Shown here in pieces: positions 32,206-38,650 of a DNA stretch of 60,439 nucleotides. This DNA comes from Gammaproteobacteria bacterium (GTDB taxonomy: Bacteria > Pseudomonadota > Gammaproteobacteria > SZUA-140). The notes under the pieces were generated by a model, which worked only from the letters and a program-made list of their open reading frames with translations, had not been told where the DNA came from and made no database searches. The stretch's first letter is position 1. Each line of letters starts with the position of its first letter. The position numbers and the translations under genes were made by a program. Where the stretch lies: the NCBI GenBank assembly GCA_021648525.1, contig JAKISP010000022.1, forward strand, positions 1-60,439. The letters run 5' to 3'.

Positions 32206-32943
32206 TTATCGGTTTTGAAACTCAGCATGCGTGAACACAATTCGTTCTTGCTTAGATTTAGCGTGAGCTCGACGGCAATTGACCTCCGTTTTATCAAGGT
32301 ACAGAAACCATGTTTGCAGGGCCGTAGGCGCTTTTGATTTGAATGCCGAGGGATCCAGTATGGCGTGATTAACACCCGACTGGTTATCTCGGCATGACTG
32401 GTAGGTAATCAACTTTACATCTGCCTTCCTGGCATTCAAGGCGAGTTCATGAGTCGATGCATAATCATTCGATAGCCAATCTGCTTCATCACGGTTTAGC
32501 TTCGGCTCCATTAGATTAAGGCCATTGTCGGTACTGAATACAATGGTAAATACCGTTAAGGTTTCTTCGTTCTCAGGAAAGGTGGTGCCAGGGGAATTAA
32601 GAAAAAACTGAAGACGGTGATAGGTGTATTCGGCAAGAGCAGTTCGAATATTGTCCGCGCAATAAAACACCCCTGTTTTTTCCATTGAACGTCGAAATCG
32701 AGAGCCATGCTTTTTAGGTGGTTTGTAGCGAAATGGCGTTTTGAGAAGGTAGTGAAGCCCTTCAGTGCCCTGCAAATATCCAGGTTTGTTCTCTTCAAGG
32801 ATTTCTTCAAGCAGATCATGCTCATCGATGTTATCGACCAGTTTGCGTGATGATGAGATGTGCTGATTCTCGACAACCCGCCAGGCAATGCCTGAAACTG
32901 GACGAACTTCAGATGCAAGCGCGGTTGGCGTCCACATAATCAA
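32206..32943 (-). CDS. RES-domain toxin of a type II toxin-antitoxin pair
   Basis: 245 residues. The RES fold is recognised from AWRVVE (the Arg), an E in RTALAEYTYHR and a Ser/Asp in TYQSCRDNQSG. RES toxins use or degrade NAD+, halting growth. The N-terminus overlaps the antitoxin gene by 35 bases; MWTPTAL at 32937 is an alternative start. It ends 83 bases before speB. Confidence 0.75.
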   Translation of the reverse strand: MIMWTPTALASEVRPVSGIAWRVVENQHISSSRKLVDNIDEHDLLEEILEENKPGYLQGTEGLHYLLKTPFRYKPPKKHGSRFRRSMEKTGVFYCADNIRTALAEYTYHRLQFFLNSPGTTFPENEETLTVFTIVFSTDNGLNLMEPKLNRDEADWLSNDYASTHELALNARKADVKLITYQSCRDNQSGVNHAILDPSAFKSKAPTALQTWFLYLDKTEVNCRRAHAKSKQERIVFTHAEFQNR

Positions 32944-33286
32944 CTGTCTCTACCAGACCAGTGACTGACTTGATATGTTCTCGTGGCGTGGCTTCTAGCT
33001 CGTTATTGTAAGATGACATCCAGCAACGGAGGGAGTTCTGATCACCCGCGACAATAGCGTCTAAACTCCGATATAGCCGAACGACAAGCGCGCTAAGCTC
33101 CCACTCCTTGGTCTTATCAGACAGCGTGCGATTGCCACTCTGCATTCGAGAAATAGAGGAAGGGCTTGTCCCAATTGTTTGAGCCAGATCCGCATCGCTA
33201 ATGCCGATTAATTCCGCCGCCCTGAGCAATGCCCTGGTGAGCACTGTTTCTCTATCGGGTCTGGTATCTCGCGGTGAGTCACTCAT
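32909..33286 (-). CDS. Xre/DUF2384-type antitoxin paired with the RES toxin
   Basis: About 125 residues. An N-terminal Xre-like HTH (ADLAQTIGTSPSSISRMQSG) is followed by a C-terminal DUF2384 (MbcA/ParS) region with SLDAIVAGD near the middle. It should bind the RES toxin and repress the operon. The ATG at 33286 has a good ribosome site (GAGGTGG); the longer form from 33298 is less likely. Confidence 0.8.
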   Translation of the reverse strand: MSDSPRDTRPDRETVLTRALLRAAELIGISDADLAQTIGTSPSSISRMQSGNRTLSDKTKEWELSALVVRLYRSLDAIVAGDQNSLRCWMSSYNNELEATPREHIKSVTGLVETVDYVDANRACI

Positions 33287-33379
33287 AAACCACCTCAATC
33301 CGTCAATTTCATATGAAATTATATAAGGCTATCGACTCATATGCAATTTTTCATCAGGAGTGATAAATGACACCTCAAT

Positions 33380-33435
33380 AATCTCGTTCCCACGTGACCG
33401 TAGGAAATGCCCCTGGTGCTCTGCGTGGGAATGCA
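33380..33435. repeat. 56-bp direct repeat, left copy, beside the OLD/helicase pair
   Basis: Matches 38176-38231 in 51 of 56 positions, same direction. Ends carry the short inverted repeat TTCCCACG/CGTGGGAA, so it could fold as a hairpin. It lies between the antitoxin gene and the helicase gene in a 214-base gap. Confidence 0.8.
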
Positions 33436-33500
33436 AAGTAAGCTATGTTTTGCCATGAACCGTATATTGACATTCTACCATGTGAATAACCACCGACCGG

Positions 33501-35432
33501 CTAAAGCCGGCGGCGTAGAATAACTTCATAATCGTCAAACCACCCCTTTGCTATGACCTTCTCTTTCAATACTTGAGGATCCTGAGAATAGGCTACCAAA
33601 GCAAGACTTTTTTCTGCGCGTGTGCAGGTGACATAGAAAAGCCTTCTTGTTTTATCTACTCCAGTTTCTTCTCCTTTAGATAGTTTATCTAGATCTGTTT
33701 TTGTCAGAGGCTTTACATCAAACAACTTTTCATATGAGAAAAGCCACCCCCCAGCCGCCTCATCATCCATGACCACCATAACGCGGTCAAATTCATGTCC
33801 TTTGACTCCCTGGTGTGTGTCAAACGCGCCTTTACCTGACACATATACTTTATAAGCGTCGATCTGACTAAAGGGGCTTTCTAAGAATCCCTGGATAGCG
33901 TCCAAGCTTGAATCGATTTCTTCATCGTTGCTTACTCCGCCCTTATCAAAATCAATACCTTCAAATAAAGGTGAAATTTCATCAACGATTTCAGATTTTA
34001 TTATGAAGGGAGTAAGGCTTTGGGGGATTAAAAATAAATCATGCTCAGCAACACATTGTAGAACATCGGAAAAACTAACATCAGGTTTTTCATCAATAAT
34101 ATCAATAACGGCCTGAATTGCACTCTTAAGTGAACCGAGAGGGTTATCTTTCGTTGTTAGGGATTTCAAAAAATCGGAATCAAGTAGCGGAGATTTTGCG
34201 CGGCGAAGATGTGTCATGACACCATGACTCGCACCCGATTTTTCGAGTTGGTAGAGTGGTAGCACATATTCTGAGAACAACCTCACGGCTGGCAAATCTC
34301 CACTACGTAATGCAGTACTCAGGCGCTTCGAGGCTGCCAAAGCACCAAACATTTCCGAAAAGCCCATTCTCACGGCTGCCATCATGTGTTCTAGCATGAG
34401 GTGCTTTACTTCATCACGATTATTCCAAAGAGCATCACCAGTGAGTTTTGCCATTTCCTCCCTGACTACGTGTTCAAATCCAGGCTTATCAGGCATGTTT
34501 GCTGGAGCAATAAAAAGACGAACATGTCCTTCCGGCTTCCCTTCAAGAACTTTCTGTTTTTGCTGATCGGATTCGGATCGAATGTCGTTGGCCAGCGTCA
34601 CGATGCGGCTCGGACTTCTGCGGTTCATTTTTTTGATTGGCTGCGCCCAGCGATCTGGAAGGTTCTTACCAAGATCAGCTTTCCCGTCGCCATAAATCCG
34701 TTGCATCATGTCACCAATGAGGCCAAGAGCAAAATGGCCTTGACGTTGCTCCTCGACTACAAAAAAAGCTTCAATAAGATGTTTGTTAGTATCCTGACTC
34801 TCATCGATCAGTAGAAATGGATATCGATTCACAACGATCTGCTGAAAAGAAGGCTTTGAAACTAAGAAATCAGTACAAATTTTTAAAACATCGGAATGCG
34901 ATAAAGAAGCTTTCCCAATGTTGTCGCCATTGGGATTGTATGTAAACTCTCGTCGTTTCGTGAGCCAGTGTAGGCGCTCCTTTTTGCTGGCAATGCTTCG
35001 TTGTCGGGTAATTGATGCCTGCGTACCAGAGCGTCCCTTTGCTTCTTGTTGTTCAAACTTTGCTATTTCATCAGGAATTGATCCTAGCAGCGAACTCCGG
35101 ATATCATCGTGAAAAGTTTTTATCTGAAGCCAACAGAAGCTATGAATGGTACTGATATGAAAAAGTGGATCACCCTTCACTCGATCGATGATCTCCTCGC
35201 AGGCCGCGTTGGTGTAGGTGATTACCGCAATTTTCCTACCAGTCCTTCTGAATTTCGTTCCATAAGACTTTTCAAAATCTTCAAGTCCCTTCACAAGTGA
35301 GTATGTTTTTCCTGAACCTGCGCCTGCATACAAGAAAAAAGATTTTGGTGAATCAGGGTTTAGGCACTCTTCAATCACTACATCCACTGGGTTATCAGTG
35401 CCTGGGACTCCCGTCGTAACCGAACTTACCAT
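33501..35432 (-). CDS. UvrD/Rep-type helicase, GajB-like, of a putative Gabija-type defence pair
   Basis: 643 residues, superfamily 1 helicase. Motifs are Walker A AGAGSGKT (36-43), motif II IDESQDT (209-215), motif III area GLIGDMMQRIYG (237-248), motif V THQGVKGHEFDRV (539-551) and motif VI FYVTCTRAEKS. It starts four bases after the OLD gene, so they are one operon. In Gabija, GajB helps the GajA nuclease respond to phage. At 643 residues it is longer than the GajB I recall (about 500), with an extra helical region at about 330-470 between motifs. A DNA-repair role is an alternative. Confidence 0.75.
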   Translation of the reverse strand: MVSSVTTGVPGTDNPVDVVIEECLNPDSPKSFFLYAGAGSGKTYSLVKGLEDFEKSYGTKFRRTGRKIAVITYTNAACEEIIDRVKGDPLFHISTIHSFCWLQIKTFHDDIRSSLLGSIPDEIAKFEQQEAKGRSGTQASITRQRSIASKKERLHWLTKRREFTYNPNGDNIGKASLSHSDVLKICTDFLVSKPSFQQIVVNRYPFLLIDESQDTNKHLIEAFFVVEEQRQGHFALGLIGDMMQRIYGDGKADLGKNLPDRWAQPIKKMNRRSPSRIVTLANDIRSESDQQKQKVLEGKPEGHVRLFIAPANMPDKPGFEHVVREEMAKLTGDALWNNRDEVKHLMLEHMMAAVRMGFSEMFGALAASKRLSTALRSGDLPAVRLFSEYVLPLYQLEKSGASHGVMTHLRRAKSPLLDSDFLKSLTTKDNPLGSLKSAIQAVIDIIDEKPDVSFSDVLQCVAEHDLFLIPQSLTPFIIKSEIVDEISPLFEGIDFDKGGVSNDEEIDSSLDAIQGFLESPFSQIDAYKVYVSGKGAFDTHQGVKGHEFDRVMVVMDDEAAGGWLFSYEKLFDVKPLTKTDLDKLSKGEETGVDKTRRLFYVTCTRAEKSLALVAYSQDPQVLKEKVIAKGWFDDYEVILRRRL

Positions 35433-35436
35433 CCAC

Positions 35437-37692
35437 TTACGCTCCAGAGTCAGTTAGTATTAAAGCAGGTTCTTTCAGTTTTTCCTGAAGCCATTTCAAT
35501 CCAGCCTCTATGTACGGAGGCGGGGAAAGTTCAGAACCGTCTTCAATTTCAACTAGGCAATCGATAGCGAAGGCAGCTTTTTTAGCCTTGTCGACGATTT
35601 CAAATAGTTCGATTTCAAGTCCATCAGCAGACGGTTCATTGTTAATCAACTTGGCAATTTTATTTGTTGTAGAAGAACCAGATATAACCTTGAGTGCATC
35701 AATATTTGCGTAAACCAAAGCGTCCTCAAAGGTTCTAGGTATTAATTTATCTCCGTCTTTATTTGTCGGATCAGCAACCACTTTTTGATAGGCCACATAT
35801 AGGTCATATTCATCGTTAACACATATGTAATGCTCAGGTTCATTCACGGAAAGCAAATCATCGATACTAATAAGTTTGGGATGCCATGACTTTAGCGTAG
35901 TATTGCACGTCACCTGGCCAGCATTAAGTTTTGGTTTTGCTTTCTTGTTACGGATTGTGGTTCCACCTTTCGCAGTTTGAACTTTCGTTGGCAAACATGC
36001 ATCCAGATCAGTAATGACAAGAGAGGTTAAGCCTAGCGCCTTTATTAATGGCTTGAATCTAGGGGCGTTAGAGCCGCCAAGATCAATCAGGCTAATATAA
36101 CGTCGCCACAAATCACCAAAGTGGTGACGAATGAAGTGAGGGACCAAGATACGCTCCGTTTGCCCTTCTACAAATATAGCGGCATCAGCAAAGAAAAGAT
36201 CGCAATCTGTAGCTTTGATATATCTTTTTACAAAACGCAAAGTTTTTATGTCTTCGCCAAAGACGTTAGACAAGTTAATGATAGTTGAAGTGGGCGATTG
36301 ACCTTGATTCTTAGCAGGAAGACGTCGAAAGTAGCGAAGATTTGCAAAATCCACCTCATGCGCGACATGGCTTGAATGCGTACTTACCAGCAATTGAGTC
36401 GCATAAGTATCCGAGTCTTCGAGATCTGTATGGTTGCGCAGAACACTGTAGGCCTTTTTAATAAACACCTGCTGTACTTGCGCGTGCAGATGAGCTTCTG
36501 GTTCTTCAATCATAATTAGTTGAAGTGGGGCAATGCTAACCTCTGCGGTGCTACTTGTTTTTGGCTCGACCCAATCTTGCCTAAAACGCATCAGTAGAAA
36601 AACCATTGCGATCAAATTTTGATACCCCAGCCCTGCGTAAGACTCTGGCAGATATCGCTCCTCTTGGTCGTCCTCAGGTTCAGATACTCTGTATTGAACG
36701 GCAGAACCATGGCTAAGTCCATCCAAAGATTTAAACTTTGTGTTTATAACGATACTAGGGTTGTTTATCCCAGGAATCCCAATTTCAGTTAGCTCATCAA
36801 ATACTGAGGAAAAACCAGTCTTTAAGCGTTGATCAAACGCCTTTTCAGCTTGCTGCAACGCACTAAAGGCACCAATATCATCGGCACTCACGTCATCCTT
36901 TTGATCAACATGTTGATCGTAATAGCTGCGAACATGATCTGAAAGGGTTCTGATCAACCGACCTGATTTTGCATCCTCGCTATCGGGTGATGAAGTGCCA
37001 CCAGCCGAGAAATCACGCATAGCCGGTATTTCACGTATATTTATCAACCCCTGAAAAGGACTTCCCTCTAGTTCTAGAGCATCCTCAGGCAAGGGCTGCA
37101 CGCAAGCACGACCTTTGTTATCGGGGGCTGCCAACTGTTCAGGATCTAATGAGTATGCCTTTAGCGCCAAATAGTCTGAGAGTGGCTTTTCTAGAAACTC
37201 GATCAGATTCCTGGGCGCAATAGATAATTTTTGTTCCTTTGGCGCTTCAGTCTCGATTTTTTTTGCAGCCAATCGTTCCTTAATATAATCAGCCTTAAGT
37301 AGGCCAATATCTTTAAATTCAAAACGCAATCGCACCCCAACTACACCGCCCATCCAATCGACATTTGGTATGATATGAATAATATGATGAATCTGAGTGA
37401 TTGGAACGTCAAGCCAAACATCAAGCAGGGGAAGAAGCTCATTTAAGGTATGTTGAAATTCTCCCTCACTTTCCCAATCGAGTCCCACTTGATCAATCGC
37501 CGACCAATTTCCAATAGAGATATCACGAAGTTCAATGCTTTTGGGTGAAATAAGAAATTTCCTCAATGCAATCATAGCAGATGTTTTTCCGCTATTATTC
37601 GCACCAACAAGCAGTGTTTTTTCTTTGTCAAAATCAATCCGACAGCTTTTCAGCTTTCGGAAATTTTGAATTTCAATAAAATCTACCTTCAT
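35437..37692 (-). CDS. OLD-family ATPase-TOPRIM nuclease, GajA-like
   Basis: 751 residues. An ABC-type ATPase has Walker A GANNSGKT (30-37), a signature region AGLGYQNLI (353-361), Walker B MIEEPEAHLH (394-403) and H-loop STHSSH. A C-terminal TOPRIM nuclease has the Glu in VEGQTE (508-513) and DLD (562-564). ATPase plus TOPRIM followed by a UvrD-type gene is class 2 OLD, the Gabija arrangement. It is larger than canonical GajA (about 580), with an insert at about 70-290 in the ATPase lobe and a longer C-terminal tail. Expected role: sequence-directed nicking of phage DNA when nucleotides fall. Confidence 0.75.
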   Translation of the reverse strand: MKVDFIEIQNFRKLKSCRIDFDKEKTLLVGANNSGKTSAMIALRKFLISPKSIELRDISIGNWSAIDQVGLDWESEGEFQHTLNELLPLLDVWLDVPITQIHHIIHIIPNVDWMGGVVGVRLRFEFKDIGLLKADYIKERLAAKKIETEAPKEQKLSIAPRNLIEFLEKPLSDYLALKAYSLDPEQLAAPDNKGRACVQPLPEDALELEGSPFQGLINIREIPAMRDFSAGGTSSPDSEDAKSGRLIRTLSDHVRSYYDQHVDQKDDVSADDIGAFSALQQAEKAFDQRLKTGFSSVFDELTEIGIPGINNPSIVINTKFKSLDGLSHGSAVQYRVSEPEDDQEERYLPESYAGLGYQNLIAMVFLLMRFRQDWVEPKTSSTAEVSIAPLQLIMIEEPEAHLHAQVQQVFIKKAYSVLRNHTDLEDSDTYATQLLVSTHSSHVAHEVDFANLRYFRRLPAKNQGQSPTSTIINLSNVFGEDIKTLRFVKRYIKATDCDLFFADAAIFVEGQTERILVPHFIRHHFGDLWRRYISLIDLGGSNAPRFKPLIKALGLTSLVITDLDACLPTKVQTAKGGTTIRNKKAKPKLNAGQVTCNTTLKSWHPKLISIDDLLSVNEPEHYICVNDEYDLYVAYQKVVADPTNKDGDKLIPRTFEDALVYANIDALKVISGSSTTNKIAKLINNEPSADGLEIELFEIVDKAKKAAFAIDCLVEIEDGSELSPPPYIEAGLKWLQEKLKEPALILTDSGA

Positions 37693-38308
37693 GGAATTGT
37701 GCTGCCGTTATGTTTTCGATCAATTATCGGATTATTTCGAATGTCATATTTAGGTAGAACCCAATCATTAACATCAATTCATAAAGAATCGTAAAGAAAG
37801 AGATACCCCTCCTGCCCGCTATTAAACGCTATCAAGAAATTAACGCCTCACCTCAAACATGCCATAAACAAGCATCAAGTAATAGCCAATTACTTACATA
37901 TTTATAAATGAATTAGTATGTTACCACAAGAGTGAAGAAAAAAGATGAGCCGGAGTTTTTTAGACTGGATTCCGTTTAAAAACATAACGGAATGACGGTG
38001 TGGACGCTACCTTTTTATTCAAAAAAGTGTGGTTGTATCGCTACTTCACATAAGACCAACTTTAAACCTCGCAATATCAAAGACCCGCGGACACAATACT
38101 TAATTCACCACCCGACCCAACGGCCTTCTACATCACCTCAAATCCAATAACCCATTAGAAATGAGAAAGCTCCCCAATCTCATCCCCACGTGACCGTAGA
38201 AAATGCGCCTGGTGCTCTGCCTGGGAATGCATAGACCGGTTAAAGTAAAGTGAAGTGCGAGTTACCCGGGCGGAGGATCATGAAGACCCGTACAGTCTAT
38301 TTTCAAGT
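37693..38308. other. 616-base gene-poor gap upstream of the OLD gene
   Basis: AT-rich and without a convincing ORF. It holds the right 56-bp repeat (38176-38231) and presumably the promoter of the OLD/helicase operon near 37700-37760, though no clear -35/-10 pair stood out. A short ATG frame with a good ribosome site near 38270 codes only about ten residues. Confidence 0.6.
38176..38231. repeat. 56-bp direct repeat, right copy
   Basis: Five mismatches to 33380-33435. Between the two copies lie exactly the helicase and OLD genes (about 4.7 kb). Recombination between copies would remove both and leave the neighbours intact. Confidence 0.8.
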
Positions 38309-38650
38309 CTAATCAAATTCTCCAGCGAAATAACGCTCCATCGTCATACACTGCCAGTCGGCCTGTCCCTCGCCGTCGGCCATCGACTTAATCAGCGCAA
38401 AGCGTTTAATCCGGTCGGCTGTCATTATGTTGACATAATCCGACTCGAAAAAAACAGGCATTTTACTCTCGATTGTATCCGCTAGCTTCCCCTCTTTAAT
38501 ATCAAGGGCCATGGCCTGAGGCGCGATCTCTGAATAGATCTGGCAAAGTGGGTCATACGATGAGACGGTAGTGGTACTACACGCACTAAGCAGCGAGGCC
38601 AATGTTAATAGCCAGACAGTCGAAATCCTCTTTTTAGTCGCAAAGTTCAT
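38309..38650 (-). CDS. Small lipoprotein of unknown function
   Basis: 113 residues with a lipoprotein signal: a hydrophobic stretch then LLSAC, Cys24 being the lipidated residue. The mature part contains two more cysteines. No family recognised. It follows the cytochrome c gene by 35 bases on the same strand and may be its operon partner. Confidence 0.7.
   Translation of the reverse strand: MNFATKKRISTVWLLTLASLLSACSTTTVSSYDPLCQIYSEIAPQAMALDIKEGKLADTIESKMPVFFESDYVNIMTADRIKRFALIKSMADGEGQADWQCMTMERYFAGEFD

Follow-up and report, generated by a model that had tools for sequence, protein, structure and literature searches.

On balance, it appears that a Gabija operon was gained in the lineage studied here at a variable, repeat-rich stretch, that the duplication of a flank and its repeat accompanied this arrival, and that the two repeats that frame the operon are no working excision device. 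The operon would have been gained between speB with its neighboring Xre-RES pair on one side and a lipoprotein/cytochrome c gene pair on the other, and a piece of about 100 bp from upstream of xre was duplicated together with the repeat, leaving two repeat copies at this site. The locus lies within a window of 60,439 nt, the whole stretch of gammaproteobacterial DNA that was analyzed. Its features are listed below with reference to the Gabija-free site of a genome of the same genus, G012 (contig C20, locus L037).

32206..32943, minus strand: RES-domain toxin of an Xre-RES toxin-antitoxin pair (Pfam RES PF08808, 6.5e-27)
32909..33298, minus strand: Xre-type antitoxin (Pfam PF20432, 5.4e-13; PF09722, 2.7e-6)
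33331..33367, plus strand: xre upstream flank, left copy (homology to L037 ends at 33367; 25/37 against the right copy)
33368..37955, no strand: block missing from the G012 site (in blastn, window positions 33367 and 37956 meet at L037 4676/4683)
33380..33435, plus strand: left copy of the 56-bp repeat, hairpin-forming (51/56; DNA fold -10.1 kcal/mol, z -2.3)
33501..35432, minus strand: gajB, UvrD-like SF1 helicase, 643 aa (PADLOC PDLC00111, Pfam PF00580)
35437..37692, minus strand: gajA, OLD-family ATPase-TOPRIM nuclease, 751 aa (PADLOC PDLC00095, AAA_15, OLD-like_TOPRIM)
37853..37998, plus strand: dispersed intergenic repeat Y (about 6 near-full copies in the genomes G011 and G013, plus X-only copies)
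38132..38168, plus strand: second copy of the xre upstream flank, left of the right repeat (29/37 against the G012 xre flank)
38176..38231, plus strand: right copy of the 56-bp repeat, with a mutated hairpin arm (51/56; fold stability not in excess)
38309..38650, minus strand: small lipoprotein-like gene (89% DNA identity to L037 4835-5183)

A standard two-gene Gabija operon

Two minus-strand genes lie between the repeats, gajB directly downstream of gajA with its ATG 4 nt past the gajA stop codon, and the GC content of the operon is about 0.42-0.44 compared to 0.47-0.53 in its surroundings. An earlier note on this DNA, which had called the pair a Gabija-like OLD/helicase operon, is borne out by both PADLOC (E<1e-229) and Pfam: GajA matches PADLOC PDLC00095 (1.4e-261), PF13175 (AAA_15, 7.1e-50) and PF20469 (OLD-like_TOPRIM, 8.9e-19), and GajB matches PDLC00111 (1.6e-230) and Pfam PF00580 (2.1e-20). 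GajA carries a Walker A motif (GANNSGKT), a TOPRIM glutamate (FVEG) and a DLD motif, while GajB carries its own Walker A motif (AGAGSGKT) and DESQD. Residues G30-T37, E509 and D562/D564 of GajA are invariant across six homologues, and its TOPRIM block was aligned to an OLD nuclease chain. Cleavage by B. cereus GajA requires the TOPRIM residues E379, D511 and K541, as shown by mutation (PMC8136825); in the window protein, the match by motif covers the glutamate and the DxD. Judged by its profiles and motifs, 33501-37692 is a genuine, standard two-gene Gabija operon.

The reference system for Gabija consists of GajA and GajB from Bacillus cereus VD045 (PMC8136825, PMC10681800, PMC10781630), with which the window shares a two-gene operon organization, an AAA_15 plus OLD TOPRIM GajA and a UvrD-like GajB. 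The two differ in length, with 751 aa for GajA here and 578 residues in the solved B. cereus chains, the subfamilies here being longer, and the match of the window protein to solved GajA is weak by direct sequence comparison (2e-5) but firm by profile (6e-11). By analogy with the reference system, the operon probably works as described for Gabija and is anti-phage: GajA, an OLD ATPase/TOPRIM DNA endonuclease, would act against phage DNA together with its partner, the SF1 helicase GajB.

The nearest plasmid relatives, with the same gene order, are found on the alphaproteobacterial plasmids p213 of Sphingomonas sp. AAP5 and pR132503 of Rhizobium leguminosarum WSM1325, whose GajA and GajB are 52-53% and 51-52% identical to those of the window, respectively. 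These plasmid loci lie near tyrosine or site-specific integrase genes, whereas the window block contains neither an integrase nor a transposase; gajA and gajB are its sole substantial genes, and both lack a recombinase domain. Among the nine genus-mates searched, none has a close match to GajA, the closest being a 34% identical protein in G011, and this absence points to gain of the operon rather than its loss. The Gabija genes themselves are ordinary, and the locus means little beyond one more, apparently horizontally gained, defence module at a variable site.

A pair of direct repeats that is not coincidental

The earlier note had drawn attention to two copies of a 56-bp sequence, 51/56 identical and in the same direction, around the two-gene unit, and this pair is confirmed (33380-33435 and 38176-38231). 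Elsewhere in the window, the 56-mer matches at best 30/56 without gaps; of 400 random 56-mers from the window, the best attained 43/56 and none 51/56. When the 36-nt center was searched with up to 3 mismatches, exactly two sites were found in the 3.36-Mb genome, far from the hundreds that would have made the flanking positions a coincidence, and it was absent from all 19 family members searched; an exact 22-nt core had no match in the genome_contigs collection. The two copies share a longest identical run of 15 bp, and the left copy folds as a hairpin, whereas the mutated right copy does not.

Two details of the original description needed adjusting. The repeats were said to lie immediately outside the unit, which holds on the left, where the repeat is 66 bp past the gajB stop, and not on the right, where 484 bp separate it from the start of gajA and the interior of the repeat pair is non-coding for about 480 bp (37693-38175). 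Likewise, the 56-bp unit is real but the duplicated unit is longer: the ungapped match extends to 33369-33438/38165-38234 (84%), and both repeats are preceded by a copy of the xre upstream flank (33331-33367/38132-38168). The segment at 38132-38168 matches the xre flank of G012 at 29 of 37 positions, a score that none of 5000 shuffles reached; with the left flank of the window it agrees at 25 of 37 (12 and 29 of 5000 shuffles). Since flank and repeat are both doubled, the duplicated unit is a site of about 100 bp upstream of xre plus the repeat. This duplicated flank favors past recombination or duplication at the site, and is better evidence for it than the 56 bp alone. Divergence of the right flank copy is 22-32% compared to 11% between the window and G012 in the same flank, which implies that the duplication is old or that it derives from a more distant relative.

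A Gabija-free site without the 56-bp repeat

The informative relative is G012 alone, whose assembly is 66% complete. At its site, speB, the RES gene and xre follow the window collinearly as far as 33367, homology restarts at window position 37956 with six bases between (L037 4676/4683), and the lipoprotein-like and cytochrome c genes come next, the former adjoining Xre-RES. A Pfam search of the lipoprotein-like gene at 38309..38650 returned no match. The missing block (33368..37955) takes in the left repeat, gajB, gajA and the 5' portion of Y, and a second length difference, 251 bp in the window (38050-38300) versus 56 bp in G012, holds the right repeat; the G012 site therefore contains no Gabija genes and neither repeat copy. 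Because G012 provides a Gabija-free site, the operon is lineage-variable. In G014 and G015, speB and the cytochrome c gene are direct neighbors, about 93 bp apart, indicating that the interval is variable within the genus, and a further sign of this variability is an extra small reading frame in G012 (L037 5235-5699) that lies between the lipoprotein-like and cytochrome c genes and that the window lacks. Among the genus-mate regions compared, G012 is the only one with an Xre-RES pair (32206-33298 in the window) at the speB site.

This empty site provides a test of the proposal that homologous recombination at the pair of direct repeats brought about gain or loss of the module, and it shows that flanking repeats need not be island borders. 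In support of such an exchange, direct repeats that are rare in the genome stand on both sides of a variable block with a collinear counterpart, and part of the duplicated unit is chromosomal flank, which integration by homology would be expected to leave. The borders, however, are not those of the repeats: the empty site joins at 33367/37956, so that the left border of the island lies 12 bp from its repeat and the right border, at 37955, falls 220 bp inside the right one. The earlier note had suggested looking for strains with one repeat and no genes between, and the G012 site has zero copies. Exchange between the repeats leaves one copy and removes 37956-38049, which G012 keeps, and these two genomes consequently do not differ by such an exchange. 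In addition, the repeat is found elsewhere without Gabija, and its copies, which diverge by 9% over 56 bp and by 32% in the flank, are not clearly recent. In E. coli, RecA-dependent exchange calls for identity over some 25 bp or more; the longest perfect run here, 15 bp, falls short of this and makes ongoing excision unlikely. We thus regard gain or loss of the cassette through repeat exchange as unlikely.

The 56-bp element is a dispersed, low-copy repeat

The arms of the repeat form a palindrome, GTTCCCACG...CGTGGGAAT, that is multi-copy in other Gammaproteobacteria, and the arm palindrome is present without an insert in G011 (L006). Whole-repeat relatives with the same arms occur as solitary copies in G012 (contig C17), between genes read from their translations as bioC and bioD, and in G011 (contig C61), near a gene named from its translation as cytochrome c peroxidase-like. 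Since these loci are unrelated and Gabija-free, the 56-bp element is an intergenic hairpin repeat that is dispersed at low copy number in the genus and untied to Gabija, and not a Gabija attachment site. It resembles REP elements, the short intergenic palindromes with GTAG or CGTC tags (PMC3733652), in being an intergenic hairpin, but REP and BIME sequences are high copy and the 56-bp repeat occurs only twice in the genome. Other identities were tried and rejected: there is no Rfam hit of note in 33290-33510, the repeat has no T-run and the terminator scan is negative there, and no tRNA is present in the window to suggest a tRNA or attachment site. A second small palindrome, CCGACCGGCTAAAGCCGGCGG, at 33495-33515 overlaps the gajB stop codon.

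Given this dispersal, the two repeats could be independent insertions of a REP-like hairpin into 3' intergenic spaces, unrelated to the arrival of Gabija. Both copies are indeed just downstream of minus-strand genes (gajB and the lipoprotein-like gene), solitary copies sit in other intergenic spaces such as that between bioC and bioD in G012, and the dispersed repeats X and Y crowd the same spot. Yet the xre upstream flank precedes both window copies and is missing around the solitary repeats in G011 (C61) and G012 (C17), and two copies in 3.36 Mb that lie 4.8 kb from each other and point the same way are unlikely to arise by chance. We consider independent insertion very unlikely.

X and Y repeats at the right border

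Y (37853-37998) has an AT-rich body and an end that is like CGTC-tagged REP sequences. Its last 40 nt (37959-37998) constitute X, many copies of which occur alone, whereas near-full copies of Y were counted at about six, at least, in G011 and G013. On the minus strand, X reads CGTCATTCCG...CGGAATCCAG, like a CGTC-tagged REP (PMC3733652). In G012, whose site has only the 3' part of Y, the junction lies where X begins and is compatible either with an insertion beside X or with a deletion of the remaining Y in G012.

The second of these options would make G012 the derived genome, its ancestor having possessed Gabija along with the repeats and an entire Y, with two deletions following in the G012 lineage. 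Truncation of Y at its X part in G012, when the window has Y whole, agrees with deletion there too, and the right flank, diverged by 22-32% as against 11% between the window and G012, may reflect a duplication that predates their split. On the other hand, seven other genomes of the genus lack a close GajA, G011 has only the 34% homologue, and X, 40 bp long, is also found as a repeat on its own. Derivation of G012 by deletion is therefore a reading that we hold as possible but doubtful.

The reading that we prefer, gain in the window's lineage, would have Gabija-bearing DNA integrate by homology at the intergenic segment and then rearrange, the duplication taking place alongside; a link between duplication and integration seems most likely. 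Integration by homology at the repeat in one step is opposed by a Gabija-free site without the repeat and by the position of X/Y, which separates the right repeat from the island, and at least two events are thus needed.

Contig C22 of G011 has a HigBA-like toxin-antitoxin pair bounded by two Y copies that point the same way, and next to it a HipBA-like pair (L075 6685-7860). This arrangement raised the idea of Y as an integron-like cassette site, which was rejected as Y is also found downstream of unrelated housekeeping genes.

A 24-nt core within the repeat

A gammaproteobacterial palindrome, GTTCCCACGCTCTGCGTGGGAATGC, that is multi-copy on Salinivibrio and Thiodictyon replicons corresponds to the arms of the 56-bp repeat, but the window copies hold 24 extra nt between CCCAC and GCTC. 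This core, GTGACCGNAGGRAATGCCNNTGGT, stands directly before GCTC or a near variant in both window copies (33394-33421 and 38190-38217). Beyond the window, core loci (L078, L080-L089, L092-L119) lie in palindromic repeats of unrelated phyla. Allowing up to 3 mismatches, there are 10 copies in Oscillospiraceae SIG498; elsewhere we found 8 in Poribacteria, six of them a variant, 1 in Mariprofundaceae, and others in genus-mates, with differing repeat contexts. A control pattern gave zero matches in this search. Of 369 genomes in the class, only that of the window contains the core, none of the viruses and phages searched does, and plasmids yielded just an 18-nt partial match; a literature search by sequence found no paper naming it.

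Very tentatively, and at low confidence, we suggest that the core might itself be a tiny mobile sequence that enters palindromic repeats already in place, at the position directly 5' of GCTC or a near variant. If it does target palindromes in this way across phyla, it would be mobile DNA of unusually small size and would bear on the spread of hairpin repeats. The core interrupts the gammaproteobacterial palindrome between CTCGTTCCCAC and GCTCTGCGTGGGAATGC, and in Oscillospiraceae it stands between ...GCCA and GCTCCCTC(N)GAGGGAGCC. The SIG498 palindrome, GCTCCCTC...GAGGGAGCC, exists both with and without exactly these 24 nt in front, and the gammaproteobacterial palindrome likewise occurs with and without the 24-nt core.
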